DNA of 64,000 nt, from assembly GCF_024398015.1 (NCBI RefSeq), contig NZ_CP073747.1, forward strand, positions 2,346,001-2,410,000, written 5' to 3'. Of the stretch, positions 42,660 through 59,705 are shown in pieces. How positions within the stretch are numbered: position 1 is the first letter of the stretch; the number at the start of each line of letters is the position of its first letter. The notes under the pieces are model-generated. The model searched no databases and had not been told where the DNA came from. It worked only from the letters and a program-made list of their open reading frames with translations. Origin of the DNA: Kordiimonas sp. SCSIO 12610 (GTDB taxonomy: Bacteria > Pseudomonadota > Alphaproteobacteria > Sphingomonadales > Kordiimonadaceae). The translations under genes were made by a program, and so were the position numbers.

Positions 42660-42790
42660 CATGCAAGACAGTTATACCTTTTAAAAGTTGGGATAGCGGA
42701 ACAGGTTTTCGCTACCCAAGTAGGACATCATACCTAACAAGACTATTTGACATTAAGGTGTATTTAAGAAACCTTTGATAACAAAAGTTA

Positions 42791-42806
42791 TATATCAATT
42801 GATATA
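42791..42806 (+). promoter_or_regulatory. 16-bp palindrome upstream of the PDZ/Sel1 operon
   Basis: TATATCAATTGATATA is perfectly symmetrical and lies 18 bases before the first start codon of the operon. The half-site TATCAA also makes up the element in front of the three PEP-CTERM genes at 25-27 kb. Confidence 0.5.
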
Positions 42807-42823
42807 AGGTTAAAAAGATACTC

Positions 42824-43906
42824 ATGAAACATCGTTTGTTTTTAGTAATCTTCCTATGTTTTGGTTTGTGTCCACAAACCGGCTTTGCACAATCCAATAA
42901 TAACGCTCAGGCACGCGCGTTCTATTTCGTTGCAGAAGAGGCATATGAAAATAAAAAATACAGTGATGCCTTTGATGCATTAAAGCGTGCAGAAAAATTG
43001 CGCGGTGAGACCGATGCCAGATTTCTGGGGCTTGAAATCAAAATCCTTTTTGCCCAGAAAAAAGATCAACGGGTCATTAGACTGATCGATAGGTTTTACG
43101 CACATGATGCTCCAGCAGACCTTGCCAGGGATATTGCCAAAATCCAGCTTCAAACCGAGAAGCGAATTCGCTCACAACAACAGGCAAAAGCTAGACGGAT
43201 TGCCGCAGAAAAAAAGCGGGCTGAAGAACGGCGCCGGCAAGAAATTGAGCGCAAACGCCGTGAAGCGGAACGTGAGCGTTTTCGGCTTGAAAAAAAGAAA
43301 CGCGAGGAAGCCGAGAAGTTTCAAAAAGCGCGCGAATCCGACCATAGAGCGGCAAGGATAGCACGCGACAACCAAAGCAACAGCCTCGGCATAACTATAT
43401 CTGACGACGGCGGTATTCTTACTATCATTCAGGCCTCTGAAGATGGTGCGGGATATCTAAATGGTCTGCAAGTTGGCAGCAATATATTAAAAGTGAATGG
43501 GATCGAAATAACATCTACTAAGCAGTTCATTAGACTGTATGATCAAAAGAAAAAGATACGTCTACGCGTAAAACAGCTTAATGCAAAACGAAGTAAACTG
43601 GTCACCAAGACCATCAAAATAGACATGGAAAAGGCGAAGGCCATATTTGCGGCGCGAAAAGGCAAACTAGGTATAGCTTTTGGCCAAGCGCAAACATATC
43701 CGATACTGGCGATGACTGTTACCCCACAAAGTCCTGCAGCCAGGGGCGGCATTCAAGCGGGCGATTTTATTTTAGCGGTTGGTGACACAAAAATTACGTC
43801 AACCGAAGAGTTCTTAAGACAGATAACACTGATAGAAACAGGACAGGTCGTTGTCTTCACCATTGACAGGCTTGGTAAAACCATACTGCTGCCGATTAAA
43901 TTTTAA
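42824..43906 (+). CDS. Exported two-PDZ protein with shared N-terminal helical-repeat domain (1)
   Basis: This 360-residue protein has a signal peptide (1-23, ending GFAQ), then the shared N-domain (about 24-118; ARAFYFVAEEAYENKKYSDA, LKRAEKLRGETDARFLGLE), a Lys/Arg/Glu-rich coiled coil (about 118-182) and two PDZ domains. The PDZ domains start near LGITISDDGG and LGIAFGQAQ, with GLQVGSNILKVNG and GIQAGDFILAVGD as the carboxylate-loop equivalents. No protease domain is present, so it is a binding or scaffold protein in the periplasm. It is the first gene of a tandem run of exported proteins. Confidence 0.84.
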   Translation: MKHRLFLVIFLCFGLCPQTGFAQSNNNAQARAFYFVAEEAYENKKYSDAFDALKRAEKLRGETDARFLGLEIKILFAQKKDQRVIRLIDRFYAHDAPADLARDIAKIQLQTEKRIRSQQQAKARRIAAEKKRAEERRRQEIERKRREAERERFRLEKKKREEAEKFQKARESDHRAARIARDNQSNSLGITISDDGGILTIIQASEDGAGYLNGLQVGSNILKVNGIEITSTKQFIRLYDQKKKIRLRVKQLNAKRSKLVTKTIKIDMEKAKAIFAARKGKLGIAFGQAQTYPILAMTVTPQSPAARGGIQAGDFILAVGDTKITSTEEFLRQITLIETGQVVVFTIDRLGKTILLPIKF

Positions 43907-43911
43907 GGGGC

Positions 43912-45054
43912 ATGATGCATACAAAACTACATAAAATATTAAATGAAGGACTGGTACCCTTATCAATTATATTGTTCCTGATCGGGATACTTATCATTAG
44001 CCCGCAGCATGCGTCGGCGCAGTCATCAGATAAGCAGGCACGTGCATTTTATTTTGTTGCCGAGGATGCATATGAAAACAAAAGGTATGATGAAGCCTAT
44101 AGGGCCTTAAAACGCGCAGAAGCGCTACGCGGGAAAACCGATGGTAGGTTTTTAGGCTTGGAAATCAAAATTCTGTATGCACAGAAAAAAGACCAGCAGG
44201 CCCAGCGTCTAATTGAACGGTTTTATGACTATGAAGCACCACAAGATATCCTGCGTGATGTTGCCAAAATCCAATTGGAAATCGAGGAGCGTATTGAGAA
44301 AAAGAAAAAGGCAGAAGCCCGCAGGATAGCGGCAAAGCGAAGAGCCGATGAAGAGAGGCGACAGAGAGAAGCAGAGCGTAAAAGGCGAGAAGACGAGCGC
44401 AAACAAAAAGAAGCCGAACGAAAACGAAAACAACAGGAAGAATTAAAACGTCAGCATGAGGCAGCGCTTAAACGGCTACAAGAGGCCGACATGGCCGAGG
44501 CCACAGCAGTACGAAGAAGTGGTAATAACCCAATAGGAGTTATTCTGTCGGATGCAGACGGTAAAATAAAAGTCCTTCACGCCTTTAACGGTGATGCCGC
44601 CAATAAAAGCGGCATGAAATCTCGGGATCATATTCTTGAAGTTAATGGCCAAAAAATTTCCAGCATTGAGGATTTTTGGGCTCAGCTCAGGAAAAAGGAC
44701 AAGGCGCGCATTAAGGTGCGTCGTCTGAATTCCAAACGAAATGGCTATAAAACCAAAACAATTAGAATTAACATCAAGAAAGCCCAGAAAAAAATAGCCG
44801 CTGAAAAAGCGAGGCTTGGGGTCAAATTCTATACCGTAAGGGGGTATAGGGTTATAATTAACTATGTTAATCCTAACTCAATTGCATCAGCTGCGGGTAT
44901 CCAACCAGGTGACTATATTGATACTATTGATGGCACACCGATTTCTTCCAATGCACAGCTATTGTCATTAATCCGCGCTGTACCCTCTGGTGGAACCTCT
45001 ATCTACTCAATTGATCGTTTCGGCGAGAAAATCGATATTTCGGTTACGTTTTAG
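43912..45054 (+). CDS. Exported two-PDZ protein with shared N-terminal helical-repeat domain (2)
   Basis: This 380-residue paralogue of the previous gene has the same order: leader, N-domain (ARAFYFVAEDAYENKRYDEA), long charged coiled coil (about 125-190) and two PDZ domains (GVILSDADGKIKVLHAFNGD; GVKFYTVRGYRV). It starts five bases after the previous stop. Sequence divergence is greatest in the coiled coil and in the PDZ peptide-binding edges, suggesting different partners. Heterodimer formation through the coiled coils is possible but inferred. Confidence 0.84.
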   Translation: MMHTKLHKILNEGLVPLSIILFLIGILIISPQHASAQSSDKQARAFYFVAEDAYENKRYDEAYRALKRAEALRGKTDGRFLGLEIKILYAQKKDQQAQRLIERFYDYEAPQDILRDVAKIQLEIEERIEKKKKAEARRIAAKRRADEERRQREAERKRREDERKQKEAERKRKQQEELKRQHEAALKRLQEADMAEATAVRRSGNNPIGVILSDADGKIKVLHAFNGDAANKSGMKSRDHILEVNGQKISSIEDFWAQLRKKDKARIKVRRLNSKRNGYKTKTIRINIKKAQKKIAAEKARLGVKFYTVRGYRVIINYVNPNSIASAAGIQPGDYIDTIDGTPISSNAQLLSLIRAVPSGGTSIYSIDRFGEKIDISVTF

Positions 45055-45064
45055 GGGGGTATCA

Positions 45065-47014
45065 ATGGCTTGCAACACTACACCGTCAGCGATTTTATGG
45101 AATAAGGCCTATTGGCTAGCGTCCTTGATCCTACTCATACTTGTCTCAACTACAACGATACCTGCACAAGCACAGGTCGCCCGTAAAACCGATGATAATC
45201 GTATTAGCACCAAACTAAGTGTCGATGGATCGAGTGGCCTTTATCAAGCCATATATTCAGGCAATAGCTTTGTCAGTGCGGTTGAGCTTGATATCGAATG
45301 GTGGACCCTGTTTGGTGAAATTGTTTATGCACATAAACTAAAATGGGAACGCAGCAACAGTTTCCGCTTTGGGGAAAGTGGCGGTGAATATCCGATAACC
45401 CGTGATAGGTTGTCCGAGTATCCTGATTTATTGAAACGGTTCGATGCGCTAACACCAGAGGATATCCAACTGACGATTACGTTTTATGCTGCTCGTGATC
45501 AACAATCTGACCGTCCTTCACCGTCTCCAAATTTGTTTGAACTCCAATCAGCAGCCACTCAATTTGAGGTGAAATTAAAGAAAACGCCCTATTTTCAAAT
45601 CCCAAAACCTGGCGAAAATGGCTTTGTTTTATCACCTGGTAGGCCAAAGGATTGGCAAACTTTCATGATGCCTATTTTTACGCCAAACGGGGATGTTAAT
45701 ACTTGGATCAAAAACACTTGGACTGCCGCAGACTCACTAACCTTTGATAGATCTACTCCTCTTAAGGTCACTAAAATAGTTCCTCCAACCACTTCCCTTA
45801 ACAATATTGCTGCGGAATATTGGCGCAGAAAAAAAGAAGAGAAAGAAGAAGAGGACGATTTCTGGGACGACAAAGAAGATGCGGATGAGGAAGAAGTGGC
45901 TGAAGAAGATGATTTCTGGAACGAAGCAGAAAAATCTGAAAGTAACGAAAAATCTGACGAAGATGATTTCTGGAAGGAAGCAGAAAAATCTGACGAGGAC
46001 GATTTTTGGGCCTGCCCTGATCAAAGTAATGACTGCTGGAAGAAGCCTGAGCCAAAGGTAGCCCCTGCAAAACCTACGGCATCAATTAATAACACCAATG
46101 GTGAAATTGTCGTCCATTTTGGCGGAGAAGGACGCGAAGATGACCGATACGCGGTGCTGAATGCAAACGGACAGGCCATCATTCCCTTCACCTACAACCG
46201 CATCTACGCCTACGAAAACGGCCGTGCACGTGCGACACAGTTATCATTAGTTGATAAATTTACTACGACCGGCAGGTACCCTTACCCGTGTACTATATTC
46301 GTATGGTTTGATGGAGAAATTAATAAGTTCGGGCACTGGGTCGGCGAACCCGAAACATATTATGCCATGCGCACTCACAAAGCGATCGGCATGAGTGAGG
46401 AAGCTGTTTGTGACAATAATTCCAGTTCAGTGCGAACAAGAGTTAATCGACTTCGCAGCGAAGGCGTGCGTTATATTGGTCAACTACCACAGTCACGTGA
46501 TTATGACTTGCTTGATGTTCATATGACTAAAGGCGCGGGCAACCCTAATTGGTACAAGAGATACACGGAAAAAATTCGCGAAGTTACTTCTCTTGCAAGC
46601 CAAACATTTGAAATTGTCAAAAATGACAACCGCGAATGGGGCGTCAGGGGAGTAGATGGCAGGATGCTTATCCCCTTCTCGAAAAGACTGATCCTTTACT
46701 ACAAAGACGGTATCGCAAAGGCCGCAGAACAGATCGAAGTAATACCTTATACGTGTGTAGAAGGGCGCGGTGCCTTTAGGGGTGCGGCACTAAAAAGCGC
46801 CTATTTCATAGTTTGGGCTGAGGGACTGATTGACCAAAAAGGCAAATGGATCATCGCCCCAACGAAAAAAGGGTATTTCAGTGGGTCTGATCGCCGGTGC
46901 AGGAAATTTATACCGAGGGCCCGAGATCATGCGCGCGCGAACAATATTAAAATTACCGAAGACTATGAAGAGTATGCCAACATCATTGGCAAAATGGACG
47001 GCTGGCGCGAATGA
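45065..47014 (+). CDS. Large exported protein with DDFW repeats and WG-repeat-like segments
   Basis: From ATG 45065, which follows AGGGGGG, the protein is 649 residues. The signal peptide ends PAQAQ. A beta-rich N-terminal half (about 40-255) is followed by an acidic low-complexity stretch with four DDFW motifs (near residues 264, 282, 301 and 314). The C-terminal half has WG/KWG-like segments (YAVLNANGQAIIPFTYNRIY; WGVRGVDGRMLIPFSKRLIL; GLIDQKGKWIIAP). A paralogue lies at 57721-59157 with a single DAFW at the matching place. Function unknown; export and context suggest an envelope structure. Confidence 0.78.
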   Translation: MACNTTPSAILWNKAYWLASLILLILVSTTTIPAQAQVARKTDDNRISTKLSVDGSSGLYQAIYSGNSFVSAVELDIEWWTLFGEIVYAHKLKWERSNSFRFGESGGEYPITRDRLSEYPDLLKRFDALTPEDIQLTITFYAARDQQSDRPSPSPNLFELQSAATQFEVKLKKTPYFQIPKPGENGFVLSPGRPKDWQTFMMPIFTPNGDVNTWIKNTWTAADSLTFDRSTPLKVTKIVPPTTSLNNIAAEYWRRKKEEKEEEDDFWDDKEDADEEEVAEEDDFWNEAEKSESNEKSDEDDFWKEAEKSDEDDFWACPDQSNDCWKKPEPKVAPAKPTASINNTNGEIVVHFGGEGREDDRYAVLNANGQAIIPFTYNRIYAYENGRARATQLSLVDKFTTTGRYPYPCTIFVWFDGEINKFGHWVGEPETYYAMRTHKAIGMSEEAVCDNNSSSVRTRVNRLRSEGVRYIGQLPQSRDYDLLDVHMTKGAGNPNWYKRYTEKIREVTSLASQTFEIVKNDNREWGVRGVDGRMLIPFSKRLILYYKDGIAKAAEQIEVIPYTCVEGRGAFRGAALKSAYFIVWAEGLIDQKGKWIIAPTKKGYFSGSDRRCRKFIPRARDHARANNIKITEDYEEYANIIGKMDGWRE

Positions 47015-47049
47015 ACGCCAGGATGTCATTACGTGAAGGTGGATCGAGA

Positions 47050-48195
47050 ATGAATAATAGAATTTTGGCATTATGTCTTTTTACCGCTGTGTCGATGCTG
47101 ACATTACCCACCATTCAGGCACAGTCCGGTAATTCAGCACAGGCGCGCGCGTATTATTTTGCAGCGGAAGATGCTTTTATGTCTGGCAAATTGAATGACG
47201 CACTGACCGCTCTAAAAAAGGCAGAAGGATTGCGCGGGAAAACCGATGCTCGTTTTCTGGCACTCGAGGTTAAAATTCTTACGCGCCTGAAACGCTATGC
47301 AGAAGCCAAAACCAAGATAAACGAATTTTATTCATATGATGCCGACACAAGCCTACAACGCGAAATCGCACCGATTTTGTTACAGATTGACAAAGGCCTC
47401 ACGGCAAATGCTGCAAAAGCTACTCGGGATGGTTATCGAGAAGCTCAGAAACAAAATTACACTGAAGCAGCAGAATTATATGACGCTGGCTGCATTGGAG
47501 GTAATATGCTTGGATGTACTGCCCTAGGCGAATTATATGAATCTGGACGTGGAGTTAACCAAAATAGACGGCGTGCAAGTGAACTATATGAGAAAGCTTG
47601 TAATGGTGATTATATGAATGCGTGTACTCAGCTAGGCGTACTTCTTTATGACGATGCACGAGAAAATGCTGGGCGCGCAAGTAAGCTTTATGAGAAAGCT
47701 TGCGACAATGGTCATATGATTGGATGTACTGTTTTAGCTCTCCTTTATCGCGAAGGTGAAGGCGTTTCGCAGGACTATGATCGCTATTCCGAATTGATGT
47801 TGCGCGCCTGTGAGAATGGCCGTGACCAAAGTTGTTATACTCTGGGTGATGAATATGAATTTGGCCGACGACTTCCGAAGAGCCCAGAACGTGCGTTCGA
47901 GATATATAGTAAAGCCTGTTATGATAAAAAGGTTGCTGGATGTGTTGGCCTTGGGCACTTAAGTCAGTCGGGAAAAGGTATGCCAAAAGACTATGCTGAA
48001 GCCCATCGCTATTACAAAAAGGCATGTGATGGCGGCAGTTCACATGGCTGCAATGATCTTGCTCATTTATACCGGGATGGATTGGGCGTTACACTGAACC
48101 TCAAAACTGCAGGTCGCTTTTACGATCAAGCCTGTAAAGGCAAATTTCAGGCCGCCTGTGATCAGTTAAAGACACTCAATGAAAATGGTAACTAA
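47050..48195 (+). CDS. Exported Sel1-repeat protein with shared N-terminal domain
   Basis: From ATG 47050 the protein is 381 residues with a signal peptide ending IQAQ. The N-domain (about 24-118; ARAYYFAAEDAFMSGKLNDA) is homologous to that of the two PDZ proteins. It is followed by about seven Sel1-like repeats with paired Cys (for example ACNGDYMNACTQLG, ACDNGHMIGCTVLA, ACDGGSSHGCNDLA). C-x7-C spacing inside repeats matches Hcp-type disulfide-linked solenoids, consistent with the oxidising periplasm. The same N-domain fused to different C-terminal modules marks one gene family. Confidence 0.86.
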   Translation: MNNRILALCLFTAVSMLTLPTIQAQSGNSAQARAYYFAAEDAFMSGKLNDALTALKKAEGLRGKTDARFLALEVKILTRLKRYAEAKTKINEFYSYDADTSLQREIAPILLQIDKGLTANAAKATRDGYREAQKQNYTEAAELYDAGCIGGNMLGCTALGELYESGRGVNQNRRRASELYEKACNGDYMNACTQLGVLLYDDARENAGRASKLYEKACDNGHMIGCTVLALLYREGEGVSQDYDRYSELMLRACENGRDQSCYTLGDEYEFGRRLPKSPERAFEIYSKACYDKKVAGCVGLGHLSQSGKGMPKDYAEAHRYYKKACDGGSSHGCNDLAHLYRDGLGVTLNLKTAGRFYDQACKGKFQAACDQLKTLNENGN

Positions 48196-48281
48196 GAATT
48201 AGGATTAAACTGGGTCAGATTATAACACATCAATCATCGATAAGTTAAAGTTTATACCAACAAGGTTTCAGGGGAATATGC

Positions 48282-49562
48282 ATGTACATGATAAGGTTAA
48301 GTTTGCTTCTCATACTGATATCTGGTTTTTCGAATGTAACAGCACAAAACCTAAAGATCAGCGACAAAGAAATTCATCCTGATGTTGCAACAGGTGATAA
48401 GGCCTATAATCGCGCAAATTATTACGCCGCTGAGCGATCATACAGCAAAGCATGTGACGCTAATATCGGAATGGGATGCCAACGCCTCGCCCGTTTTTAT
48501 GACACGGAAGGGGCGATAAAACGCAGCGAAGTCAATCAACTTATAAAACGCGATATTAACAAAGCACTACCCTTCTATCAAAGAGCATGTACAACCCTAC
48601 GCGACGGCAAAGCCTGTGCAATTATTGGGAATAAATTGTTAAGTGGAGATGGTGGGTTAAAGATGGACATTGCGGGTGGTCAAAACTTTCTACACCACGC
48701 CTGCGAGATGCGCGATACAAGCGGATGTATCCGCCTCGGCGAATTGGCTGAAAAAGAAAAGAAATATGATGATGCTTCCACCTGGTATTTCACCCGTGCA
48801 TGCAAATTGGGTTCAGGCGAAGGTTGTTTTAATTTCATTCGAATGGTCGAAGAAAAAAAGTTATTTGCGAATGAAAAATTCGACCGAGCAAAATGGGTGA
48901 GTGAACAATTGGAAAGTCTTTGCAATGGCACATATGAAAATAACGTTCAGGATGAATATGCCTGCTATCAGATAAATCAAAGGCTAATTGCAAAAGACCC
49001 AGCGAAAGCACTCGACTATTTTGACACGGCCTGTGAGTACCGCAAGAACAAGTTCAGCTGTTGGGAACTAAAAGAACTCATCAATTCCGGCAAAGCTGGA
49101 TATTTACCCTATGCAGCTAAGTATGGCTCAAACTATGCTTATTTTAACGGAGTTTATGGACATAAGTTCGAAAATCTTTTTTTTAGTGATAAAGATGACA
49201 AAACTCAAAAGAATAATTTGATAATTTACCTCAGTGAACGAGCTTGTGAGCATAACAATTATTATGCCTGCATTGAGCGAGGCGAATATTGGATGCAGCG
49301 TGCCAAATATCACAAAAGCCAAAAATCGAAATATATTAATGAAGCGAAAGAGCAGTGCAGCGAAAAAAAACGAAAAGAAAACAAAGAACTTGCAAGCCTC
49401 TTTTGTAGATCAGCTCGTAACAAAGCCGATGGAATTGTTAACGAAAGTTACGAAACTGCATTCAAATATTTTCAAAGAGTATGTACGTCACGTAACAGTG
49501 CGCCTTGCAATCAAATGATCAAAGCTGCACAGGGTTATGATGGACGAATTCTTGTATTTTAA
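48282..49562 (+). CDS. Exported divergent Sel1-like protein
   Basis: This 426-residue protein has a signal peptide (ending VTAQ) and helical repeats with Cys pairs (ACDANIGMGCQRLA, ACTTLRDGKACAIIG, ACEMRDTSGCIRLG, ACKLGSGEGCFNFI, ACEHNNYYACIERG). Repeat length is irregular compared with the other Sel1 proteins and the shared N-domain is absent. It lies 86 bases after the previous gene in the same run. AT content is higher than in the first genes of the operon. Likely a periplasmic scaffold; partner unknown. Confidence 0.8.
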   Translation: MYMIRLSLLLILISGFSNVTAQNLKISDKEIHPDVATGDKAYNRANYYAAERSYSKACDANIGMGCQRLARFYDTEGAIKRSEVNQLIKRDINKALPFYQRACTTLRDGKACAIIGNKLLSGDGGLKMDIAGGQNFLHHACEMRDTSGCIRLGELAEKEKKYDDASTWYFTRACKLGSGEGCFNFIRMVEEKKLFANEKFDRAKWVSEQLESLCNGTYENNVQDEYACYQINQRLIAKDPAKALDYFDTACEYRKNKFSCWELKELINSGKAGYLPYAAKYGSNYAYFNGVYGHKFENLFFSDKDDKTQKNNLIIYLSERACEHNNYYACIERGEYWMQRAKYHKSQKSKYINEAKEQCSEKKRKENKELASLFCRSARNKADGIVNESYETAFKYFQRVCTSRNSAPCNQMIKAAQGYDGRILVF

Positions 49563-49663
49563 AAAGTATACATGAATATCGAGATTAATCGTTAAATGTC
49601 TAACGTTCAAAATGCGAGGATAAGGAGTGTTATGCAATATAATCCTAATAGAGTTGACCTGAT

Positions 49664-49786
49664 ATGCCAACTCCAAAACAGCGCAGCAGTAACAACATTG
49701 ATCGGCGTATAAAGCCCAGGCCGGAAAGGTTGGAAACACGCCATGTTCCAGAGAACTCTTTTCATAATCCACAGGAGCTTCAATGA
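49664..49786 (+). CDS. Possible 40-residue basic small protein
   Basis: An ATG opens a 40-codon frame (MPTPKQRSSNNIDRRIKPRP at the start) whose TGA overlaps the ATG of the next gene (ATGA). The ribosome-binding site is weak. The coupling-like overlap is the main reason to list it; it may be chance. Confidence 0.22.
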   Translation: MPTPKQRSSNNIDRRIKPRPERLETRHVPENSFHNPQELQ

Positions 49787-50817
49787 TTAACCTTTCGGCA
49801 CTTTTGCTATCGTTGACCGTTCTGGGCGTGGACCAAGTTGAAGGGTCTAAAACTGACAATAGTGCCGAAGCTTATATTTTTTCTGAACTTGACGATATTT
49901 TAGAGGATCAAACGTTTGAAACTGCGCTCGCAAAAACGACTGAATTGTTTGTTCGTGCGCACAAAGAAAAATACAAACTCAACAAATTAGAAAATGGTGA
50001 TATTGCACCGCCTTCAATCTGGCGCAATTCTATTTGGCGAACGCTTCATGAAAACCTGATTTCTTTTGATATGAATAAAGGCCTGTCTGACAGACTTTGT
50101 GGCCAGGTTCGAAATCACTATAAAATAAAATGGCGAACGGAACCCGAAAATCTTCCACCACTGGAGCAAAAATTATATGAATTGAAACTCCATATGTGTT
50201 CGCTCCAGGGCTACCGTGATGCCGGGGACGATATCAATGGCTTTGGGGAAAGCAAAGAGGAAGACATGTATGCCAGGTGGCTTGTCAGTAATCTTAATGT
50301 GGAATTAGGTAGCCAACTTAACACACTTCCTGCACCGCCAGCGACCATATCAGAAACATGCCCTTACAATCAGGATTATACTCTTGGCCTTGGCATAAAA
50401 TATATCAACGGCATTAGCTATTACGCATTGTCTGCCCATCACAAAAAACAGAAAACTTCAAAAATCCTATATATGGGACCAATGTATCTGCCCTATTTTA
50501 AGCATGCATACATATTTCACAACCAAGCGAATATTTATGTCTCGGTTACGTCACACTACCTAACCTGTGATTTTGAAGAGCATTCACGCACACACTCTGA
50601 AATACATAATATCGGTGATCAATTCTATTTTGTAGAAGAGACCTCGACCTGGACAGCAGAACAAAAAGCCTTGGAACCTTTACCGACAGAATTACCCATT
50701 ATGGGCACAAACCTGACAGGATGTGTTCTGCGGCCAAAAATCACTGAAGATATAGACGAAGCTAAAGACCTATACATGAAGGACGTAGAGTTATTTAACT
50801 CTGTTAAAGATGATTGA
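49783..50817 (+). CDS. Exported protein of unknown function (344 residues)
   Basis: The ATG follows AGGAGCTTCA. A short hydrophobic leader (residues 2-16) precedes a mature part rich in Asp, Lys and aromatic residues. Several Cys are spread through the protein (LCGQ, MCSL, ETCPYN, LTCDFEE, GCVLRP), enough for disulfides in the periplasm. The stretch EKKLY/EEDMYARWLVSNL is helical and the C-terminal half beta-rich. I recognise no family. By position it belongs to the PDZ/Sel1 run. Confidence 0.6.
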   Translation: MINLSALLLSLTVLGVDQVEGSKTDNSAEAYIFSELDDILEDQTFETALAKTTELFVRAHKEKYKLNKLENGDIAPPSIWRNSIWRTLHENLISFDMNKGLSDRLCGQVRNHYKIKWRTEPENLPPLEQKLYELKLHMCSLQGYRDAGDDINGFGESKEEDMYARWLVSNLNVELGSQLNTLPAPPATISETCPYNQDYTLGLGIKYINGISYYALSAHHKKQKTSKILYMGPMYLPYFKHAYIFHNQANIYVSVTSHYLTCDFEEHSRTHSEIHNIGDQFYFVEETSTWTAEQKALEPLPTELPIMGTNLTGCVLRPKITEDIDEAKDLYMKDVELFNSVKDD

Positions 50818-50925
50818 GCATACCGACATTGTCGAGAGTATTGCCTATAGTAACCAGATAGAATTGATAATTTCGGCATTATCTAATTTAGTTGTCTTCC
50901 TCGTTTCAATTAGGAGGGAATTTTA

Positions 50926-51618
50926 ATGCAAAAAATAATTTTCACGGTTTTGCTTACAATACTATATTCCGTAACAACCATACCATTTTTGCAGCTTCGT
51001 GCAGAAACGTTCTTTTTCCCCTTGAATGCTAGGGCCGATACTATTGAGCCGAATGAGCAAAAACATAATCCGAGCGACATTCGTGCCTTTGCTACTAGAT
51101 TGTGCAGTAGAATATCATCGATTTCACCATCGGAGAAATCAAGCCCCGCAGAAATCATTGATAAAACTATATTGAATTACATAAAACCAGACCTTTCCTA
51201 CTCGCAATTAACCGAGGAATTAAGATCAGAAATTAGATCATTTTGGAATCAAAACGAACGTTATTTCTTTTGCAAAGCGCTAGATGACAAGCCTAATACG
51301 GAAGACGGCCATATTCTCAAAAGAATTATACAGCTACACTTAAATATCCCATTATTGAACGACCTATATTTATCCAGGAATAAAAAAGTAAATCCAAATC
51401 CAATTAATTTTAACCACATAGATAAATTAATGCGCAATGGCATAATGGTTAATGAGACAGTAGTAGATTATATCGATTACATTATAACAAAGAAGAGCGG
51501 CACTAACGAGTTTGGCGAAGAGGAGATATTTGAACTAGAAATACTCCGAGACGAAATATTAATTGGGCACTTCAAGGCAAAACGAGCATCCGAAATTTTA
51601 TCTGTTTCTAAAGAATGA
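50926..51618 (+). CDS. Exported protein of unknown family, paralogue of the gene at 39418
   Basis: This 230-residue protein has a good ribosome-binding site (AGGAGGGA) and a hydrophobic leader (residues 3-22). It shares with the protein at 39418 the motif F-NQN---F-C (FWNQNERYFFC), then HI--R---L---IPLL, a Lys/Pro/Asn segment, VDYIDYII, EILRDEILI and AKRASE. Overall identity looks low but the order and spacing hold over about 130 residues. Fold appears all-helical. Function unknown. Confidence 0.6.
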   Translation: MQKIIFTVLLTILYSVTTIPFLQLRAETFFFPLNARADTIEPNEQKHNPSDIRAFATRLCSRISSISPSEKSSPAEIIDKTILNYIKPDLSYSQLTEELRSEIRSFWNQNERYFFCKALDDKPNTEDGHILKRIIQLHLNIPLLNDLYLSRNKKVNPNPINFNHIDKLMRNGIMVNETVVDYIDYIITKKSGTNEFGEEEIFELEILRDEILIGHFKAKRASEILSVSKE

Positions 51619-51713
51619 ACTCTTCTGTTTAATAGTAGACTAGATATTCAATCATCTTGTAGGTTCTACAATTAACATTTGAATAAGCAACTTGAGTTAA
51701 CGGCTAATTAAGA

Positions 51714-52151
51714 ATGGAACCCATTAAGATAATAAACAACACTACTGACCTTGATGGCACTTGCTATATTGAACTTTCCCTAGGACGTTATTCAGGTAAC
51801 CACTGGGCCCCTAGCAGTCTGTATTTCGCAGAAGAAATTTTTGGTTTTATCGAGCCGATTTTTGAAAAGCATATCCAAAACTATAATCATTATGGAATAA
51901 ATAATCCCGGAGTGAATGAGTGGAATAAAATCACTTCAGCACTTTCTGAGCTGGCAAATTTTTTGCGCTCAGTCAGAGATTTTGAGGAAGTATTGGGACA
52001 TATTGGCTTTATGTTTGGTGATGTTCGTGATTATTTTCAGAGGCATTTCAATACCTGCCAGCGAGATCTTATTCAGTTGATTGGTGACGTGATTGAATGG
52101 GTGAATACAAATCTACCGCACCATAGATACATAGCCATATTAGGTATTTGA
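51714..52151 (+). CDS. Hypothetical protein (145 residues)
   Basis: This soluble protein has no leader. It starts MEPIKIINNTTDLDGTCYIEL and is rich in aromatic and acidic residues in two helical segments (FAEEIFGFIEPIFEKHIQNY; LIQLIGDVIEWVNTNLP). Its size and the mix of Trp/Phe/Asp recall immunity-type proteins, but no family is recognised. The ribosome-binding site is weak. Confidence 0.5.
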   Translation: MEPIKIINNTTDLDGTCYIELSLGRYSGNHWAPSSLYFAEEIFGFIEPIFEKHIQNYNHYGINNPGVNEWNKITSALSELANFLRSVRDFEEVLGHIGFMFGDVRDYFQRHFNTCQRDLIQLIGDVIEWVNTNLPHHRYIAILGI

Positions 52152-52242
52152 GCTCGATTTCTGTACAAAACATCTATCAGTTAAATTTGCATGACTAATA
52201 GTGTTCTATAACACTCAATATTGAACAATACCCATTATCAAC

Positions 52243-52539
52243 TTATTCACTATGCTTTTCCAGCTCGATAATAACATCCCTGATCGTGCCTGCGCCAAAA
52301 CCATCACGGTCAGCATATTCACGAGAGAAGTCTTCGATGCCCTTGGTTAAGGCATCAATGGCGTTATCCGGATGTACATCCTGAAGGATGTTTTCCATAT
52401 ATTCAACCGCAAGCTTAATATCCCGTTGTGGACTGCTCAGGCCAACGAAGGAGGAAGACCCAACGAGCGCTTGATTGCGCACTGATACGCTTCTTATGAC
52501 TTCATCAATAATTCCCAAAACTTTTCCTAAAGCTTCCAA
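52243..52539 (-). CDS. Hypothetical protein (98 residues), TTG start
   Basis: A small soluble helical protein starting at TTG (MEALGKVLGIIDEVIRSVSV) and ending with IIELEKHSE. It lies between two orphan genes, with no recognised family. The unusual start codon and size lower confidence. Confidence 0.4.
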   Translation of the reverse strand: MEALGKVLGIIDEVIRSVSVRNQALVGSSSFVGLSSPQRDIKLAVEYMENILQDVHPDNAIDALTKGIEDFSREYADRDGFGAGTIRDVIIELEKHSE

Positions 52540-52613
52540 TGAATGTGTCGTCGCAGTCGAATAGAATTGTTATGAGTACAGGAGCCGTATCGCAATTGGA
52601 TTACATGCATTGA

Positions 52614-53054
52614 TCAAGCCTCGCTTCCCACACCCCTGAAAAAGTAACGTGCAAAGATTTCACTTATCATAGCGCAAACTAATCCTATCCCACCCGTAAT
52701 GAGGCCGAGCAATAAGGCCCCATCGATAGTTAAGGGATCAGCATATGCGTCACTCACAAAAGATGCAGCGATTAAAATCAATGCGCTATTGATTAGAAAC
52801 ATCAGAAATGCGGTTAAAACCATCCTGGTAGCGCGCTTTTTATATCGAACAAAACCATAGACAACTGCGAATTCAAAAAGGGCGATAAAAAAACCAAAAT
52901 AGAGTGTCTCAATAATCTCGGGCCACCAACGCGCAAAACCATCAACCCCAGTATACAGCGTAAAAATAAACAGCAATATGGTAACTATCGCACCATTCAA
53001 AAGCGCGTATGGCAACCTGCGGCTCTTGGTATCTAGATTTTGATCTTCTTCCAT
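52614..53054 (-). CDS. Membrane protein of unknown function (146 residues)
   Basis: From the ATG at 53054, preceded by AAGGAAGG, the protein has four predicted membrane helices (about 20-38, 48-68, 78-100 and 110-135) and short polar tails. An upstream Met at 53084 is open but lacks a ribosome-binding site. It has no recognised domain. It is divergent from the single-span protein at 53266. Confidence 0.6.
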   Translation of the reverse strand: MEEDQNLDTKSRRLPYALLNGAIVTILLFIFTLYTGVDGFARWWPEIIETLYFGFFIALFEFAVVYGFVRYKKRATRMVLTAFLMFLINSALILIAASFVSDAYADPLTIDGALLLGLITGGIGLVCAMISEIFARYFFRGVGSEA

Positions 53055-53265
53055 GTACCTTCCTTCATACAAGATATACACCAAGGCATAAAGTGCATCC
53101 TATATCGTATGTTAAACATACTTGCTTTGTATGGTGAAAGAAAAAGTAAAATGCTTGCCTAACGGTTTAAAAAGACTGATGATAATCTTAAGTTAAGCCA
53201 TCTATTTTGGATAGTATGGCCAAAACCCAAATATAAACAATCCATCATTAGGGAGGCGGATAATA

Positions 53266-53691
53266 ATGGATCAATCAAAGGGCTCTAAGTTCAATCGCAA
53301 AACAGTCTTTATCATCATGGCCGTCATGTTGGTTGTTGCCTTTAGTCTTTGGTATACTGCCAATTCAGCGTTGGATAATGTATTTGACCCAACACAAAAC
53401 CCTGAATCCGCAGCGGAAGTAACTGTTCCGGCGGCACCCAAGGCGTTCAGCTCTCCGCCCTCTGTTGCGGCGAGAGACTGTATTCTGCAAGCCGCAAAAA
53501 TTGAGGAATTACTCTCTGATTATGACCAGTTGGACAAAGACTTCCTCATCATTTATGCCTCACAGCTCTCATTCGAAGAATTTGCAAACAAAACTAAGGG
53601 CACAAAAACATATTCGGATGATTTGTCTCCTGCCGATATGAAACGACTACAAAATGAGGTTCAGTTTAACAGAGAGTGCAGGCTTAAATAA
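53266..53691 (+). CDS. Single-span membrane protein (141 residues)
   Basis: After GGGAGGCGG the ATG opens a frame with one N-terminal membrane helix (residues 13-33), an Ala/Pro-rich linker and a helical periplasmic part with two Cys (RDCILQAAK, NRECRLK) that may form a disulfide. No family is recognised. Confidence 0.55.
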   Translation: MDQSKGSKFNRKTVFIIMAVMLVVAFSLWYTANSALDNVFDPTQNPESAAEVTVPAAPKAFSSPPSVAARDCILQAAKIEELLSDYDQLDKDFLIIYASQLSFEEFANKTKGTKTYSDDLSPADMKRLQNEVQFNRECRLK

Positions 53692-53712
53692 GTGCACAAG
53701 ATTGATAAATCA

Positions 53713-54110
53713 TGGACCAACAGCAAAACATCATTTTTCAAAACTGGGCTTACGGTAAGAACTTAACCGGCAAATATAACGAACACTCATTTTGCGAAAT
53801 CTTGCATGAGCAACGTATTTGGGATGAGCAGCTCTACTGAGAACTGGATAAAGCCCTTTTCACACTGGGGATGGAACATCGCGGCGCTCTGCATGACAGC
53901 ATGCTTGTGAACGCCATAACTGATATCTTTCTATATGTGCATGGCAGACTTGCTTGGCACCGGATGCCAAGTGATCTATCAAACATAGAAAACCTGGATG
54001 ATATGGAATGTTCAGATTGGTCCGATAGGGTTGAAGGGGCCTTCCGTGTCGCTCTTTACGGCGCAGAATTACCAAATGATATTTTCGAAAAAGTTAATCC
54101 GTTAATTTGA
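53713..54110 (+). pseudogene. Likely frameshifted orphan gene
   Basis: An ATG frame starting MDQQQNIIFQNWAYGKNLTG runs without a fitting end. From about 53820 the sequence with a plausible protein pattern moves to another frame that contains a TGA at 53838 and then continues as ELDKALFTLGMEHRGALHDS to a stop at 54110. One frameshift and one stop would need repair to give a protein of about 130 residues. A real short gene starting at ATG 53871 (79 residues) is the alternative. Confidence 0.4.
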
Positions 54111-54397
54111 TATAATGTGAGGTAACAACCTTAAATTCAGAATAGTAAAATATGAAATTTGTTGTCTGATACTGTCAAAGTTTGAGGTAAAAATTGTCAA
54201 GACAATCGTTTTTAATATTGATAGTTTCATTGTTTAGAGGAAGCTAAATGATGAATTAAGTTATTGAAAGTATAAGTAAATAACTGCACCCTAACTACTG
54301 TTATGCTCCAAATTGTAGATAGTAGCTAAAGCCACTTAACTTAGGTATCGAACCCATTGAAATCTATGAAATCAGGCGGGAAGATGAGGGAATAAAT

Positions 54398-55219
54398 ATG
54401 AAGAAATCGATTATATCTCTGTTGCTAGGAATATTATTTTACACGGTCAGCTCTGCGGCACAGGCAACTAACTCTGGTTATGTTGTTGAAAGTACCCCTA
54501 ATTCATCCTACGCGTCTTCAAATTCCATCACTGGATTATTTAATAACCTGCAAAAAAAGGAACAGAAATCAGCACAATCAATAGCATCTGATCAATACAA
54601 CTCAGGCCTAAAAAATATCGAAGCAAAAAAATACCTCGCTGCACTAAGGGACTTTCAGAGTGCATGTAACGGGAAACACGCCGCTGCATGTACTGAAATA
54701 GCGAATTGGTATAAAACAGGCAAAAAAATTGAGAAAAGCCTCGAGAAAGCAGCATTTTTTTTCGAGAAAGCTTGCAAGCTTCAGGGCGCAGCTGGGTTTA
54801 CAGCATGTCTTAATTTGGGTGAGTTATATAAAGCAGGTGAAGGTGTAGAGGCTAACGCTGATAAAGCCAAAGCATATTTCGATGAGGCACGACGAGGTTT
54901 AGAACGTTTTTGCGGTGAAAAATATCCAGAAGCCTGCACCAGTCTTGGTTCAATTTTTACTTTAGCGCTCGGAGTTGAGAGGGACTTTCTAAAAGCATCA
55001 GTACACTTGAACAAAGGGTGCGAACATGGCAGCGGAGTAGCATGCTATCGCCTAGCGAATTTACAATTATTCGGTATGGATGGTATACCGCGCGACAGAG
55101 CAAAGGCTGTGAAGTATTTTGATAAATCATGTAAGGCTGGACTCTGGGCTGGATGTCAAAGGCATCGAGATATGACCGCTACTACAAGTGAGGAAGATAC
55201 GCCTTTTAGAGATAACTAA
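54398..55219 (+). CDS. Exported Sel1-repeat protein
   Basis: This 273-residue protein has a signal peptide (residues 1-24, ending AAQA). A Ser/Asn-rich linker precedes about five Sel1 repeats with Cys pairs (ACNGKHAAACTEIA, ACKLQGAAGFTACLNLG, GCEHGSGVACYRLA, SCKAGLWAGCQRH). The gene stands alone between clusters, with its own leader of nearly 290 bases. It lacks the shared N-domain of the 47050 and 55537 proteins. Confidence 0.82.
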   Translation: MKKSIISLLLGILFYTVSSAAQATNSGYVVESTPNSSYASSNSITGLFNNLQKKEQKSAQSIASDQYNSGLKNIEAKKYLAALRDFQSACNGKHAAACTEIANWYKTGKKIEKSLEKAAFFFEKACKLQGAAGFTACLNLGELYKAGEGVEANADKAKAYFDEARRGLERFCGEKYPEACTSLGSIFTLALGVERDFLKASVHLNKGCEHGSGVACYRLANLQLFGMDGIPRDRAKAVKYFDKSCKAGLWAGCQRHRDMTATTSEEDTPFRDN

Positions 55220-55536
55220 GTGACTGAAAAATCTATAACCGAACGAATGCAATAAAGCTGTTTTTGCTTGAAAAAGGCTTTCGATCAAATCATTCAATTG
55301 CATGGTATGAATAGCTTGTATCATGCAATACTCATAATAATTATTGATCATGCTGAATCTAATTTCTGACTACTGATAGTAGCTATCGTCTAGTTTTACG
55401 TTGACCTTCAACCCAAATTACTCGAGTAGTTCTGTTTTTAACATTATGATTTTTAAACCTGATTAAATCTAATAAGTTTAATAACCTTGGTGACAACTAT
55501 GCATCACCAAAATAAGCTAAATCAATGTCCGGGTGT
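55220..55536. other. Convergent intergenic region, no gene seen
   Basis: These 317 AT-rich bases lie between convergent Sel1 genes. No strong terminator hairpin or gene is evident. Confidence 0.55.
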
Positions 55537-57579
55537 TCAATTTGATTTGTTCAGGGTTTTACATGCCGGTTCATAACCACCCTCGCAGGCTTTTTTATAT
55601 AGTGAGACAGCGCGACTATAATCTTTAGCAACCCCCCGCCCTTTCAGGTAATTATTACCAAGATTACTGCACCCTCTAGCTAATCCAGCTTCACACGCTT
55701 GATCATACAACAATGACGCTTGCAAATGGTCCTGAGTAACTCCTGTTCCAACGGCATACAATAGACCGAGGTTGTTACATCCTACAGCCCTTCCGCCTTC
55801 ACAACCCTGCTCATAATATTTCGCCGCAAGCTCGTAATCCTGTGTAACACCTCGCCCTATCTGGTAAAGATACCCGAGGTTGGCACAGCCTCGCGTATTC
55901 CCTTTTGTACAACCTTTCTCATAATATTTAGCAGCCTGTGTATAATCTTGGGCAATGCCGTTTCCGTTGTAATAGAGTACACCGAGGTTGGTACATCCAT
56001 ATCCATGGCGCTCACACCCTTTCTCATAGTACTTTGCAGCCTGCGCATAATCTTGAGTAACACCTTGCCCTTTTTCATAATAGTAACCAAGTCGATTACA
56101 TGCTCGCAAAAAGTCATCATTACATCCTTTTTCATACAACTCTGCAGCACGTGAATAATCCTGTTGAACAACGTCTCCATTAGCATAATAATTTCCAAGA
56201 TTATTGCATCCCCAAGCACTCCCATACGAGCAACCTAGATCATAAAGCTTGGCGGCTTGCTTTTTATTCTGCGTCACTCCTGTTCCAACGGCATACATAT
56301 AACCAAGGTTAGCGCATGCCTTGGCATTGCGTCCTTCACACCCTAAATCATAGTATTTTGAAGCCTTCAAATCATCTTTACTAACGCCCCTCCCGTTCTT
56401 GTAGTATTCTCCCAATTCATAGCATGCTTCAGCGTCCGCCCCGTTACAGCCTTTCTCAAATAAGGGGATAGCCTTCTTATGATCAGGGCCTGTACGTGCA
56501 ATACCAACGCCAGTATAACGTTTCGCCAGCTCAGTACACTGTGAAGCCGTCCCTGCTTCACAACCATTTGATAAAGAAACTAAATTACGGATGCTTTTTA
56601 GGTACCCACAGCCAAAACTCTTCCCGCTAATCATGCAGGCTCTTTTAAAAAAACTTTCAGCCCGTTTGAAATCTGGTGCAACTCCCCGGCCAATCATGTA
56701 AAATTTACCAATCTTATGACACGCAAGGCCCTCCTCAGCGTCACAGGCTTGACTGAAAACTGCTATAGCCTGTGAAGTCTCCTTACTTCCCTCGTACATG
56801 AAGCCAACCTCCAAGCAAGAGTCTATTTTGCCACCATCACAGCTTTTTCTATAGAGCCTTTTTGCGCGAGCATAATCGCGAGAAACACCCTTTCCAGACC
56901 TGTACATACTAGCAAGATTGGAACATCCATAGACGTTTTGGCTCTTACATGCCTTTTCATAAAGCTTAAAAGCGCGTTGCAGACTCTTCTGAACGCCGCG
57001 TCCCTTTTCATAAAAAATTCCCAGGTTGTTACAGCCACCGGCATACCCTCCATCGCACGCGTTCTGATATTCGCGAGCTGCCAGTGAATAATTGCCATTC
57101 TTGGCCGCTTTGTACCCCCTGCTATAGGCATACGACGCATCTTTTCGAGCTTTTTCTAATCTTGCTTGTCTTTGACGCTCAGCGTCTATCCTCCCCTTTT
57201 CTATTATTTTCGTCAGCTTTGACACATCTGCACGCTGTGCTTCGCTTGCATCATAATTACTGAACTTTTCTTGAATTGCCTCTGCCTCAGCATATCGCTT
57301 TTGCGCCACAAGAATCTTTGCCTCAAGCGCCAGAAAGAACGCATCCGTTGCCCTGCGAAGCTTGGTTGCCCGCTTTAGTTGGGCGGCCGCTTCATCATAA
57401 TTGCCGTCCTCATAATTTTGTACCGCCGCATAGTAAGCTTCACGCGCCGCTTTCAGTTCTTCGGGCGATTGTGCGGAAGCAACAGAATTAAACGTCCATA
57501 CAAAAAGGCTGAACAGTAGTCCCAGCTTTAGGTATTTTACTGTCCGTGTAAATAAATTTGTATCCAATATGTATCGCAT
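55537..57579 (-). CDS. Large exported Sel1-repeat protein with shared N-terminal domain
   Basis: This 680-residue protein has a membrane/leader segment (about 15-36, ending ASAQ), the shared N-domain (about 37-130; AREAYYAAVQNYEDGNYDEA, LKRATKLRRATDAFFLALE) and about 14 Sel1 repeats of 36 residues. Most repeats carry Cys pairs in C-x7-C spacing (GCEGRNAKACANLG, GCERHGYGCTNLG with one shorter loop). The later repeats are very alike at the DNA level (55.7-56.3 kb), suggesting recent internal expansion. It forms the distal part of a minus-strand set with the two genes upstream. Confidence 0.86.
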   Translation of the reverse strand: MRYILDTNLFTRTVKYLKLGLLFSLFVWTFNSVASAQSPEELKAAREAYYAAVQNYEDGNYDEAAAQLKRATKLRRATDAFFLALEAKILVAQKRYAEAEAIQEKFSNYDASEAQRADVSKLTKIIEKGRIDAERQRQARLEKARKDASYAYSRGYKAAKNGNYSLAAREYQNACDGGYAGGCNNLGIFYEKGRGVQKSLQRAFKLYEKACKSQNVYGCSNLASMYRSGKGVSRDYARAKRLYRKSCDGGKIDSCLEVGFMYEGSKETSQAIAVFSQACDAEEGLACHKIGKFYMIGRGVAPDFKRAESFFKRACMISGKSFGCGYLKSIRNLVSLSNGCEAGTASQCTELAKRYTGVGIARTGPDHKKAIPLFEKGCNGADAEACYELGEYYKNGRGVSKDDLKASKYYDLGCEGRNAKACANLGYMYAVGTGVTQNKKQAAKLYDLGCSYGSAWGCNNLGNYYANGDVVQQDYSRAAELYEKGCNDDFLRACNRLGYYYEKGQGVTQDYAQAAKYYEKGCERHGYGCTNLGVLYYNGNGIAQDYTQAAKYYEKGCTKGNTRGCANLGYLYQIGRGVTQDYELAAKYYEQGCEGGRAVGCNNLGLLYAVGTGVTQDHLQASLLYDQACEAGLARGCSNLGNNYLKGRGVAKDYSRAVSLYKKACEGGYEPACKTLNKSN

Positions 57580-57720
57580 TCTGAGGGTTGCTCCGGTGTT
57601 TCTTTTAAGCGGCCTTTTTACTTGTCTCCGTTTGGCTTATTTGCTTGTGAGTTGATATGATTATTTGCAATCAATGTTTGGCACCAACTAACCACGGAGT
57701 AGTGCACGCCGACATCATAA

Positions 57721-59157
57721 TTACTCTTCGAACAAATTCTGATATCTTTTGTATGCTTTTATATAGGATTCATCATTTGAGTGTCCTCTCAAGTCGTCGA
57801 GAGCCGGCCAACCAAAGACTATATCTTGATTACCCTCGAATGCTTTATGCCAGCTCTGCTTAATATGCGCTACACCGAAAACTACTCTATCAGCCCCCAG
57901 TTTTTTAGCGTCCTTAACAGCCGCAAGAACTGCCTGATAGGGAGTACGATCATTGTAACTGGTAGAACGTGGAATCGTACAGTGGTTATCCCATTGACCC
58001 AGAAAAGCCTTAGGTCTCAATTTGGATATCCATTTGCCCGATCGGTTTATGTAGCCGTCACCCCAAACTTCGAGCACACCTACAACCCAAGGACTGATAG
58101 ATCTTCCATGACGGTTTACTGACGCATCTTTGCAGATAATCTGTTTTTTCGTAATATGCATATCCAATGCTCGAGCGACACCACCCTTATAACTTATGAT
58201 CCTTTTCTTTGTTGGGAGTATCATAATCCTCCCATCCGTAGCGACAACACTATAAAGCTGACTATCAAAATCATATCTAATTTCAAAGGCTTCATCCTTC
58301 GCCGCGAACCTTGGCGGTTCTTTACACGGCGTGGCTTGTTTCACGCTGACCACTCTCTTCCCGGAAGCTTGAGGGCGTTGATTACCCCAAAAGGCATCTG
58401 CTTCTGCCTTTCGAGCGGCTGCAACAGGATCATTGGGGATAGCGGTCCGGCGTAAATATTCGTTATAGATACTCCTGAACTCATGATCAGGTAGCCTCAC
58501 TTCCCTGACAAATACATTTGAAAAGGTCATACTCTTGGCAGCGTTTAACGTATTTTTACTCGCCAAATCGCGGTCTCGAACACTAGTTCGGGAACGCCAA
58601 TCTATAAACTCTGAATGTGAGCGTGGACTACTTGGAACTATATCGCTACTACGGCAACCCGCACGAGCAATAACAAAATGCGGCGTTCGTCTGATTTCCT
58701 TTAAACCACTGGCAAAGTCACCAGGAATATAATGATTATTTGGTTCGCCCCGAACACCTGGACCGGAAAATGCTTTCACTTGAAAGGATAAGACGATGTC
58801 TAATGGTTTTATCGCATCATATCTGGCCATTAAATCTGGATATGATTCCAATGCCTTACGAGAAAGCCTTTTACCATCGGCAAATCGATAGCTACCTGTT
58901 TGTGTCCACCTCAAGGTATATGATTCCACAGGTTGTCCGAAAAAACCAGTCCACTTCAATCCGACCTCTACATTCTTGATGAAATCATTGGAATGACGAG
59001 CAGGCTGATACGGATCACCTTTCAGATAAGCAATAAACGTCCCGTTCTCTTTCTCTGCCGTGTAAGACCGCTTATACTCTCCTTGTGCCAAAATGGGTTG
59101 GGTAACAATCATTGCCAACGCAAACATAATGAATATTCTAAAGTTTATCTTCGTCAT
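57721..59157 (-). CDS. Exported paralogue of the DDFW/WG-like protein
   Basis: From the ATG at 59157, preceded by AAGGTGA, the protein is 478 residues with a signal peptide (ending ILAQ). It matches the 45065 protein in the N-terminal half (VEVGLKWTGFFGQPVESYTLRW; GSYRFADGKRLSRKALESYPDLMARYDAI, partly quoted) and in WG-like segments (LYSVVATDGRIMILPTKKRI; YINRSGKWISKLRP). The acidic DDFW run is reduced to one DAFW. A longer start at 59199 overlaps the upstream gene. Function unknown. Confidence 0.78.
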   Translation of the reverse strand: MTKINFRIFIMFALAMIVTQPILAQGEYKRSYTAEKENGTFIAYLKGDPYQPARHSNDFIKNVEVGLKWTGFFGQPVESYTLRWTQTGSYRFADGKRLSRKALESYPDLMARYDAIKPLDIVLSFQVKAFSGPGVRGEPNNHYIPGDFASGLKEIRRTPHFVIARAGCRSSDIVPSSPRSHSEFIDWRSRTSVRDRDLASKNTLNAAKSMTFSNVFVREVRLPDHEFRSIYNEYLRRTAIPNDPVAAARKAEADAFWGNQRPQASGKRVVSVKQATPCKEPPRFAAKDEAFEIRYDFDSQLYSVVATDGRIMILPTKKRIISYKGGVARALDMHITKKQIICKDASVNRHGRSISPWVVGVLEVWGDGYINRSGKWISKLRPKAFLGQWDNHCTIPRSTSYNDRTPYQAVLAAVKDAKKLGADRVVFGVAHIKQSWHKAFEGNQDIVFGWPALDDLRGHSNDESYIKAYKRYQNLFEE

Positions 59158-59177
59158 TCCTATCACCTTCATCCCAA

Positions 59178-59705
59178 TCATTGTTTCCCTTTTAGCCATT
59201 TGAAGTAAGCTTGATATCGCTCATCCTTTTGAGATGAATTTAACCAGGCACCCGGTTGGTAAATAAAATCCTTCAAACAGTAGATAGAGTGATCTGCGTG
59301 GGATTTGTCATATTGCCCTCGTGGCTTCCACCATCCATGACCACTTACGACGCGATCTTTCGTAGGTGTGAAAATGATCGTATCGCGCCAAGCACCTCGG
59401 ATTTGGTTTGCAATGGGTGGGTACTTTGCTTTGATCGCTTCATAGAATTGAATTCGCACATCGCGCTTTGCAGGCTCGTACCCACCTGATGTTGGGCAGG
59501 GTGTTTCAAAAATATCAGCGTAGAATACAACAAGGGGGACATCCCTTGAACCTTCCACCTGCCCCAGCCGCTTACGTGATTGGGTGGTATTAACATCCGT
59601 CTGTATACCCATAGAAACATAACACGTTTCTTGTGCCGAAGCCGAAGGGGCTGAACCCCAGGCTGTTCCTAAAGCAATACCCAGAACTATAAATAGTCTC
59701 TTCAA
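59178..59705 (-). CDS. Exported protein of unknown function (175 residues)
   Basis: The protein has a signal peptide (residues 1-24, ending ASAQ). The mature part has three or four Cys (ETCYVSMG, ETPCPTSG, IYCLKDF) and a Trp/His-rich centre (SGHGWWKPRGQYDKSHADHS). It is the first gene of the minus-strand set; 20 bases separate it from the DDFW paralogue. A CCCATTTGGGTGACGAC dyad lies 53 bases upstream of its start. No family recognised. Confidence 0.62.
   Translation of the reverse strand: MKRLFIVLGIALGTAWGSAPSASAQETCYVSMGIQTDVNTTQSRKRLGQVEGSRDVPLVVFYADIFETPCPTSGGYEPAKRDVRIQFYEAIKAKYPPIANQIRGAWRDTIIFTPTKDRVVSGHGWWKPRGQYDKSHADHSIYCLKDFIYQPGAWLNSSQKDERYQAYFKWLKGKQ

Follow-up and report, generated by a model that had tools for sequence, protein, structure and literature searches.

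A narrow family of predicted exported proteins with one TPR-like head and exchanged C-terminal parts in Kordiimonas sp. SCSIO 12610, and its possible docking on an acidic DDFW linker

Main finding

A stretch of 64,000 nucleotides from Kordiimonas sp. SCSIO 12610 (assembly GCF_024398015.1, contig NZ_CP073747.1, positions 2,346,001 to 2,410,000, called here the window, to which all coordinates refer) contains four genes, A, B, D and G, which encode predicted exported proteins with a common N-terminal head and different C-terminal modules. They are interpreted as lineage-restricted adaptors whose head, predicted to consist of tetratricopeptide repeats (TPR), may dock on the acidic linker with DDFW motifs of an adjoining scaffold protein (gene C); this is put forward tentatively, since we are slightly more inclined to doubt it than to believe it. 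The shared head, the exchanged C-termini, the gene order A-B-C-D with a separate H-G pair, and a pair of DDFW and head genes in a second genome are seen directly. It is a new, narrow family, the general kind of which (TPR adaptor and scaffold) is already known. An earlier sequence-only reading had taken these genes for one assembly, in which a constant domain docks to a common partner and the remaining modules bind different clients, and this interpretation is partly supported. The features concerned are as follows.

42824..43906, plus strand: gene A; signal peptide, head, predicted ER/K-type helix, two PDZ domains; 360 amino acids
42890..43204, plus strand: aligned extent of the N-domain (TPR head) in gene A
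43157..43381, plus strand: residues 112-186 of gene A, a charged stretch of ER/K type with a net charge of +13
43912..45054, plus strand: gene B; signal peptide, head, predicted ER/K-type helix, two PDZ domains; 380 amino acids; 5 base pairs (bp) past gene A
44017..44223, plus strand: predicted pair of TPR hairpins in gene B, residues 36-104, made up of helices 36-55, 59-73, 78-90 and 94-104
44242..44517, plus strand: predicted continuous helix of gene B, 92 residues (111-202)
44524..45051, plus strand: PDZ pair of gene B, residues ~205-287 and ~303-380, from Pfam and the model
45065..47014, plus strand: gene C; DDFW protein, proposed scaffold; 649 amino acids; 10 bp past gene B
45170..45838, plus strand: conserved N-terminal domain of the DDFW protein in gene C (profile A4)
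45854..46009, plus strand: acidic linker of gene C with four DDFW motifs, proposed docking array
45854-45865, 45908-45919, 45962-45973 and 45998-46009, plus strand: the DDFW motifs of gene C
46154..46237, plus strand: WG repeat of gene C with the best Pfam match, residues 364-391 (two stretches in all)
47050..48195, plus strand: gene D; signal peptide and head followed by a Sel1 solenoid with paired Cys; 381 amino acids; 35 bp past gene C
47119..47433, plus strand: N-domain (TPR head) of gene D
47437..48177, plus strand: Sel1 solenoid of gene D, with HcpC (1ouv) as best PDB match
55537..57579, minus strand: gene G; signal peptide and head followed by a long Sel1 solenoid with paired Cys; 680 amino acids, 30 Cys
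57160..57474, minus strand: N-domain (TPR head) of gene G
57721..59199, minus strand: gene H, which lies directly upstream of gene G; a paralogue of gene C with a single ADAFW

The shared head

Genes A, B, D and G are intact reading frames at the places where they had been reported, gene G lying on the minus strand; their starts resemble signal peptides and no lipobox was seen by eye. The head extends over ~100 residues right behind the signal peptide, with 40-66% identity across the six pairs and 23 invariant columns in the alignment of the four, and the four pairs with no other domain in common (A/D, A/G, B/D and B/G) gave BLASTP E-values from 1e-12 to 2e-25, by which the earlier claim of a common N-terminal domain is confirmed. 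In the AlphaFold2 model of B, on which together with PDB comparison the fold call rests, the head is indicated to form a pair of TPR hairpins (residues 36-104) ahead of a long helix, the hairpin block reaching predicted local distance difference test (pLDDT) values of 85-95 from residue 41. The modelled antiparallel helix-turn-helix repeats of ~34 residues are stacked as in CTPR, and in this respect the head would belong to the TPR superfamily. Pfam returned TPR matches to the head below threshold only, NCBIfam nothing of note (weak type III secretion system chaperone and other models far under cutoff), and since numerous unrelated proteins with TPR or PDZ domains tied in the VIA-align listing, no family claim is drawn from it.

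The sequence-only reading would have been refuted if the N-domain had proved to be a common TPR found in unrelated contexts. A TPR fold is indeed predicted, but a ubiquitous sequence family is not borne out, and a common TPR used everywhere can be ruled out at the level of sequence: at E 1e-3 the profile of the head matched 2 of 29 genomes of the family and 2 of 147 relatives. In the class it matched 3 of 385 genomes, and there the two hits outside the own genome (E 2e-5 and 5e-4) belong to ordinary TPR-like proteins that differ in architecture. Sixteen weaker places were found in family genomes at E >1e-3; five of them (L037, L039, L042, L043, L048) are ordinary TPR proteins, five more (L040, L041, L044, L050, L051) were left out of judgement, and one (E 0.46) is a helical protein adjoining the DDFW-family gene of genome G009. 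Whole protein B as query matched 9 of 41 genomes: its own, a second family genome (G012) via the head, and seven through PDZ parts only. The scan of GTDB species for the head gave one locus, in uncultured Kordiimonas sp. 176-3Z, taken as the G012 contig; the genome-contig scan needs near-exact words, and one of the 38 stretches it matched was a relative. The database search with the head of D retrieved one protein (P0001) among 101 candidates and missed D itself as well as the G012 protein, so its absences weigh little.

The DDFW protein and its linkage to the head

Both head loci had been said to carry a paralogue of one large WG/DDFW protein. C and H are indeed paralogous (24% identity, BLASTP E 4e-22), but the label suits C better than H. 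In gene C the WG_beta_rep family scores 32 bits against a Pfam cutoff of 25.6, in two stretches, as expected of a WG-repeat protein; H gave no Pfam family at E up to 1, has a single ADAFW, and does not qualify as one. Gene C contains four exact DDFW codon strings, a number reached by 0 of 100 shuffles of the window.

An N-terminal domain of ~220 residues is common to C, H, five database proteins (P0003-P0007) and genes of genomes G009 and G011, followed in each by a linker and then a variable C-terminus. These C-termini are WG-type parts, longer in C and P0003 than in P0004-P0006, to whose form H aligns despite its lack of Pfam matches; P0007, G009 and G011 have other ends, beta-rich by eye. 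P0007 (442 amino acids, source label ena) is a distant member that has the DFWSG motif three times and a C-terminal part of another kind. Six of the nine proteins have a linker with 3-4 FW dipeptides, mostly in a D/E-rich context, counts reached by 0 to 2 of 20000 shuffles, and the F and W of one motif are invariant across seven motif-bearing proteins; the FW motifs are conserved within an otherwise acidic, variable linker. The linkers of both head-carrying genomes are acidic with FW motifs, and those of G009 and G011 have no FW motif and are ER/K-like instead. Closely spaced pairs of DDFW codons occur in gene C and in none of 28 other family genomes, the pattern being strict enough to miss the G012 linker, whose motifs differ in spacing and spelling. 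When C and A2 served as queries, scoring was confined to the ~8000 candidates with most words in common, a set probably filled by acidic low-complexity words.

Four of 29 family genomes had the DDFW domain, as did 1 of 385 genomes of the class (the own one) and 2 of 398 of the phylum (the own one and G009), and in profile searches the congener G001 had neither head nor DDFW domain. In G012 the DDFW gene stands immediately before a head-Sel1 gene. Compared with positions 30001-50000 of the window, G012 shows 69% DNA identity over ~800 bp of the C/D stretch and two more pieces in C and D; outside C/D there are short scattered pieces only. Since G012 carries this pair, the linkage is not unique to the present genome: head and DDFW genes adjoin in both head-carrying family genomes (own and G012). 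The recurrence of the head with PDZ, Sel1 and the DDFW gene, which the earlier reading had expected from a profile search, was obtained in G012 for Sel1 and the DDFW gene, but the only head found there is of the head-Sel1 type.

The DDFW-family genes of G009 and G011 are oriented divergently to three and two tandem copies, respectively, of a different helical protein that is predicted to be exported:

L025 5251-7036, minus strand, and L026 9281-11780, plus strand: tandem helical proteins of G009 and G011, ~258-284 amino acids, signal-peptide-like starts

Homology of the head with these neighbours is unsupported (hhalign probability 6.8 over 23 columns, E 0.005 in one comparison). As the two are not detectably homologous, each version of the proposed scaffold has its own helical neighbours. 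A profile of the helical protein found no other match among 59 genomes beyond G009 and G011, so a wide occurrence of this domain in front of other modules is not supported.

Exchanged C-terminal modules

A charged coiled coil plus two PDZ domains had been described in A and B. The PDZ pairs stand (two Pfam stretches in each protein), and the pair of B aligned with DegQ over ~198 columns (Foldseek E 4.5e-8), but the coiled coil probably does not: the stretch in question is 60-63% charged with 9% large hydrophobic residues. Its pattern of opposite charges at i, i+3 and i+4, found also in P0001 and in the linker of the G011 DDFW-family protein, was reached by 0 of 2000 shuffles. Such a pattern is the signature of a single ER/K helix, not of a coiled coil, and judged by composition the stretch looks like an ER/K-type helix; if straight, as predicted, it would set the PDZ pair some 11-14 nm off (75-92 residues at 0.15 nm per residue). 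No protease domain was found in A and B by Pfam, the HtrA/Deg models of NCBIfam remained far under cutoff, and the two proteins fall outside the HtrA/Deg family.

The Sel1 solenoids ascribed to the remaining two genes hold well, with five Pfam stretches in D (91.2 bits) and eleven in G (247.6 bits) against a cutoff of 30.7. Residues 130-376 of D match HcpC (1ouv) at E 3e-39. Beyond residue 25 D has 14 cysteines, and G has 30. The cysteine pairs are mostly spaced by 8 with a period of mostly 36, and this pairing, by analogy, fits an oxidising compartment. In Hcp proteins such cysteines link adjacent repeats (excerpt of PMC3851747).

The third architecture is represented by P0001 (583 amino acids), the sole protein retrieved with the head of D, in which the head and an ER/K-type stretch are followed by a part with weak matches to delta-60/SBBP beta-propellers. 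In a tree of six heads those of D and G012 split from the rest with 100% bootstrap, A, B and G cluster with 82%, and P0001 lies in between. Because the Sel1 architecture is found on both sides of this tree, at least two exchanges of the C-terminal part are implied, the minimum for three kinds.

Proposed assembly and its alternatives

According to the proposed mechanism C would be a scaffold and the heads of the adaptors its plugs. The heads would bind DDFW motifs in the TPR groove, as W-acidic peptides are bound in kinesin light chain, and the four motifs of gene C would let one scaffold hold several adaptors, the PDZ, Sel1 and propeller modules of which may then capture different clients, likely in the periplasm. 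Modules of these three types are commonly peptide- or protein-binding. Among the four genomes with the scaffold domain FW motifs and heads are jointly present or absent, a sequence correlation that is suggestive but falls short of strong, given the small number and relatedness of the four genomes and the poor fit of H with its single motif. Docking through the basic arm as the shared part is improbable: the head-Sel1 proteins do not possess it, and the sole head found in G012 is of that type. The idea can be carried further to a periplasmic plug and socket, in which DDFW motifs would serve as generic sockets and the 70-residue two-TPR head as a universal plug, behind which the tool is exchanged; this we consider possible and doubtful, and equally doubtful is the view of the tools that goes with it (a PDZ pair on a 14-nm helical arm, a disulphide-locked Sel1 solenoid and a beta-propeller).

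Several observations weigh against docking on the DDFW linker. The heads are nearly neutral (net charge -2 to +3) and not strongly basic; a pair of TPRs offers a small groove, and kinesin light chain uses a longer array; the linker of H, the partner of G, has one ADAFW and a net charge of +1, its motif count being reached by 1015 of 20000 shuffles; the structure model of protein C was poor and was not used for a fold search; and the correlation of motif and head comes from just four related genomes. The head may instead dock on the conserved globular domain of the DDFW protein or, in the way of TPR proteins such as LpoP and CpoB/YbgF, on an envelope protein outside the locus, the DDFW motifs then serving another partner; this we hold to be possible, if rather improbable. 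It is less likely still that no assembly exists, and that separate exported binding or quality-control proteins share head and locus through local duplication and gene gain. In favour of this, A and B are duplicates, as are C and H, the distribution is patchy (2 of 29 family genomes for the head, 4 of 29 for the DDFW domain) and Sel1-like genes without head occur in the region (E at 48282, F at 54398). Nevertheless, G012 keeps the DDFW-head pair while the rest of 30001-50000 has no long match beside it, and a head kept while C-termini are exchanged is best explained by selection for a common partner. That the proteins form an accessory scaffold of a large envelope machine, for example a flagellar motor or a secretion system, is very improbable. 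The motor scaffold of C. jejuni joins the TPR proteins PflA and PflB with the PDZ protein PflC (excerpt of PMC12222027), its chain 9hmf_D is a Foldseek match to B, and the MotX model matches D and G far under cutoff; however, Pfam found no flagellar or secretion family among 20 window proteins, and the head is absent from 145 of 147 relatives at E 1e-3.

Comparison with known systems

In kinesin light chain a W flanked by acidic residues lies in the TPR groove (excerpt of PMC6214655). The likeness concerns a TPR concave surface with an aromatic residue and acidic flanks in a short disordered adaptor peptide, W-acidic or Y-acidic, as ligand, and calsyntenin has two such motifs (same excerpt). 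Kinesin light chain differs in its eukaryotic cytosolic setting and longer TPR array, and the likeness is one of binding mode, which is inferred here. In C. jejuni the PflA linker is predicted in the TPR groove of PflB, and the PflA/PflB heterodimer was measured; this system is likewise periplasmic, with an interdomain linker in the TPR groove of the partner and a two-PDZ protein involved, but its TPR arrays are long and PflC retains a protease-like domain without catalytic triad (excerpt of PMC12222027). No sequence relation to PflA, PflB or PflC was found, and the scan of 20 window proteins brought up no motor genes.

HcpC and HcpB (1klx) resemble the Sel1 part of D in the HcpC match and in Cys pairs in step with the repeats, whereas the Sel1 parts of D and G are fused to a head and encoded beside a DDFW protein; the solved Hcp proteins are not known to have such a head. 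The PDZ pair of B is like the PDZ tandems of HtrA/Deg and RseP, but no protease domain was detected in A and B. LpoP is a lipoprotein activator of a cell-wall synthase; its TPR domain (6w5q) shows 16% identity, but in A, B, D and G no lipobox was seen. For exchangeable plug-in tools, cohesin and dockerin of cellulosomes would be the parallel, the connection in the present case being made by a linear motif and a TPR instead.

Head and DDFW domain are unnamed in Pfam, NCBIfam, PADLOC and PDB sequences, PHROGs not being searched, and a PDB sequence search with the DDFW-protein domain gave a single chain at E 1.3. Carriage by a mobile element or phage found no match in viral contigs, in plasmids (C and B as queries) or in phages (C domain), PHROGs not being scanned, and known anti-phage defence none for 6 of 6 proteins in PADLOC-DB at E 0.01. 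The earlier statement that no described system has this set agrees with the literature searches: among the matches listed, none has more than two of WG repeat, Sel1 and PDZ, and none is about such a system to judge by its title; those with Sel1, PDZ, tetratricopeptide and periplasm are not about one either, by title and start of abstract; and DDFW as a motif was not found.

Neighbouring genes

Gene I lies directly upstream of gene H:

59178..59705, minus strand: gene I, 175 amino acids, signal-peptide-like start, no Pfam match

A PEP-CTERM protein gene (41949-42659, plus strand) ends 164 bp upstream of gene A, and 40116-41756 (minus strand) encodes a LuxR-type DNA-binding domain and then an alpha/beta-hydrolase-like stretch just under its Pfam cutoff. 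Genes at 39418-40008 and 50926-51618 (plus strand) flank genes A-D; their products have signal-peptide-like starts, 29% mutual identity across 148 residues and no Pfam match above cutoff. Genes E (48282-49562) and F (54398-55219), both on the plus strand, stand between the two head loci; they are Cys-rich (18 and 10 Cys), Sel1-like and without head, E being under the Sel1 cutoff. Near the second head locus, 61321-64000 (minus strand) is the end of a ribosomal RNA operon with 5S, a tRNA and a 23S gene that the window end truncates.

Significance

The general weight of the family is limited by its narrow distribution, two head-carrying genomes and a few database proteins. If the heads bind DDFW motifs, they would represent a compact modular route to assemblies with several tools in the envelope of bacteria, as well as a bacterial instance of acidic-aromatic peptides read by a minimal TPR, and the pair would provide a small plug and socket for protein engineering.
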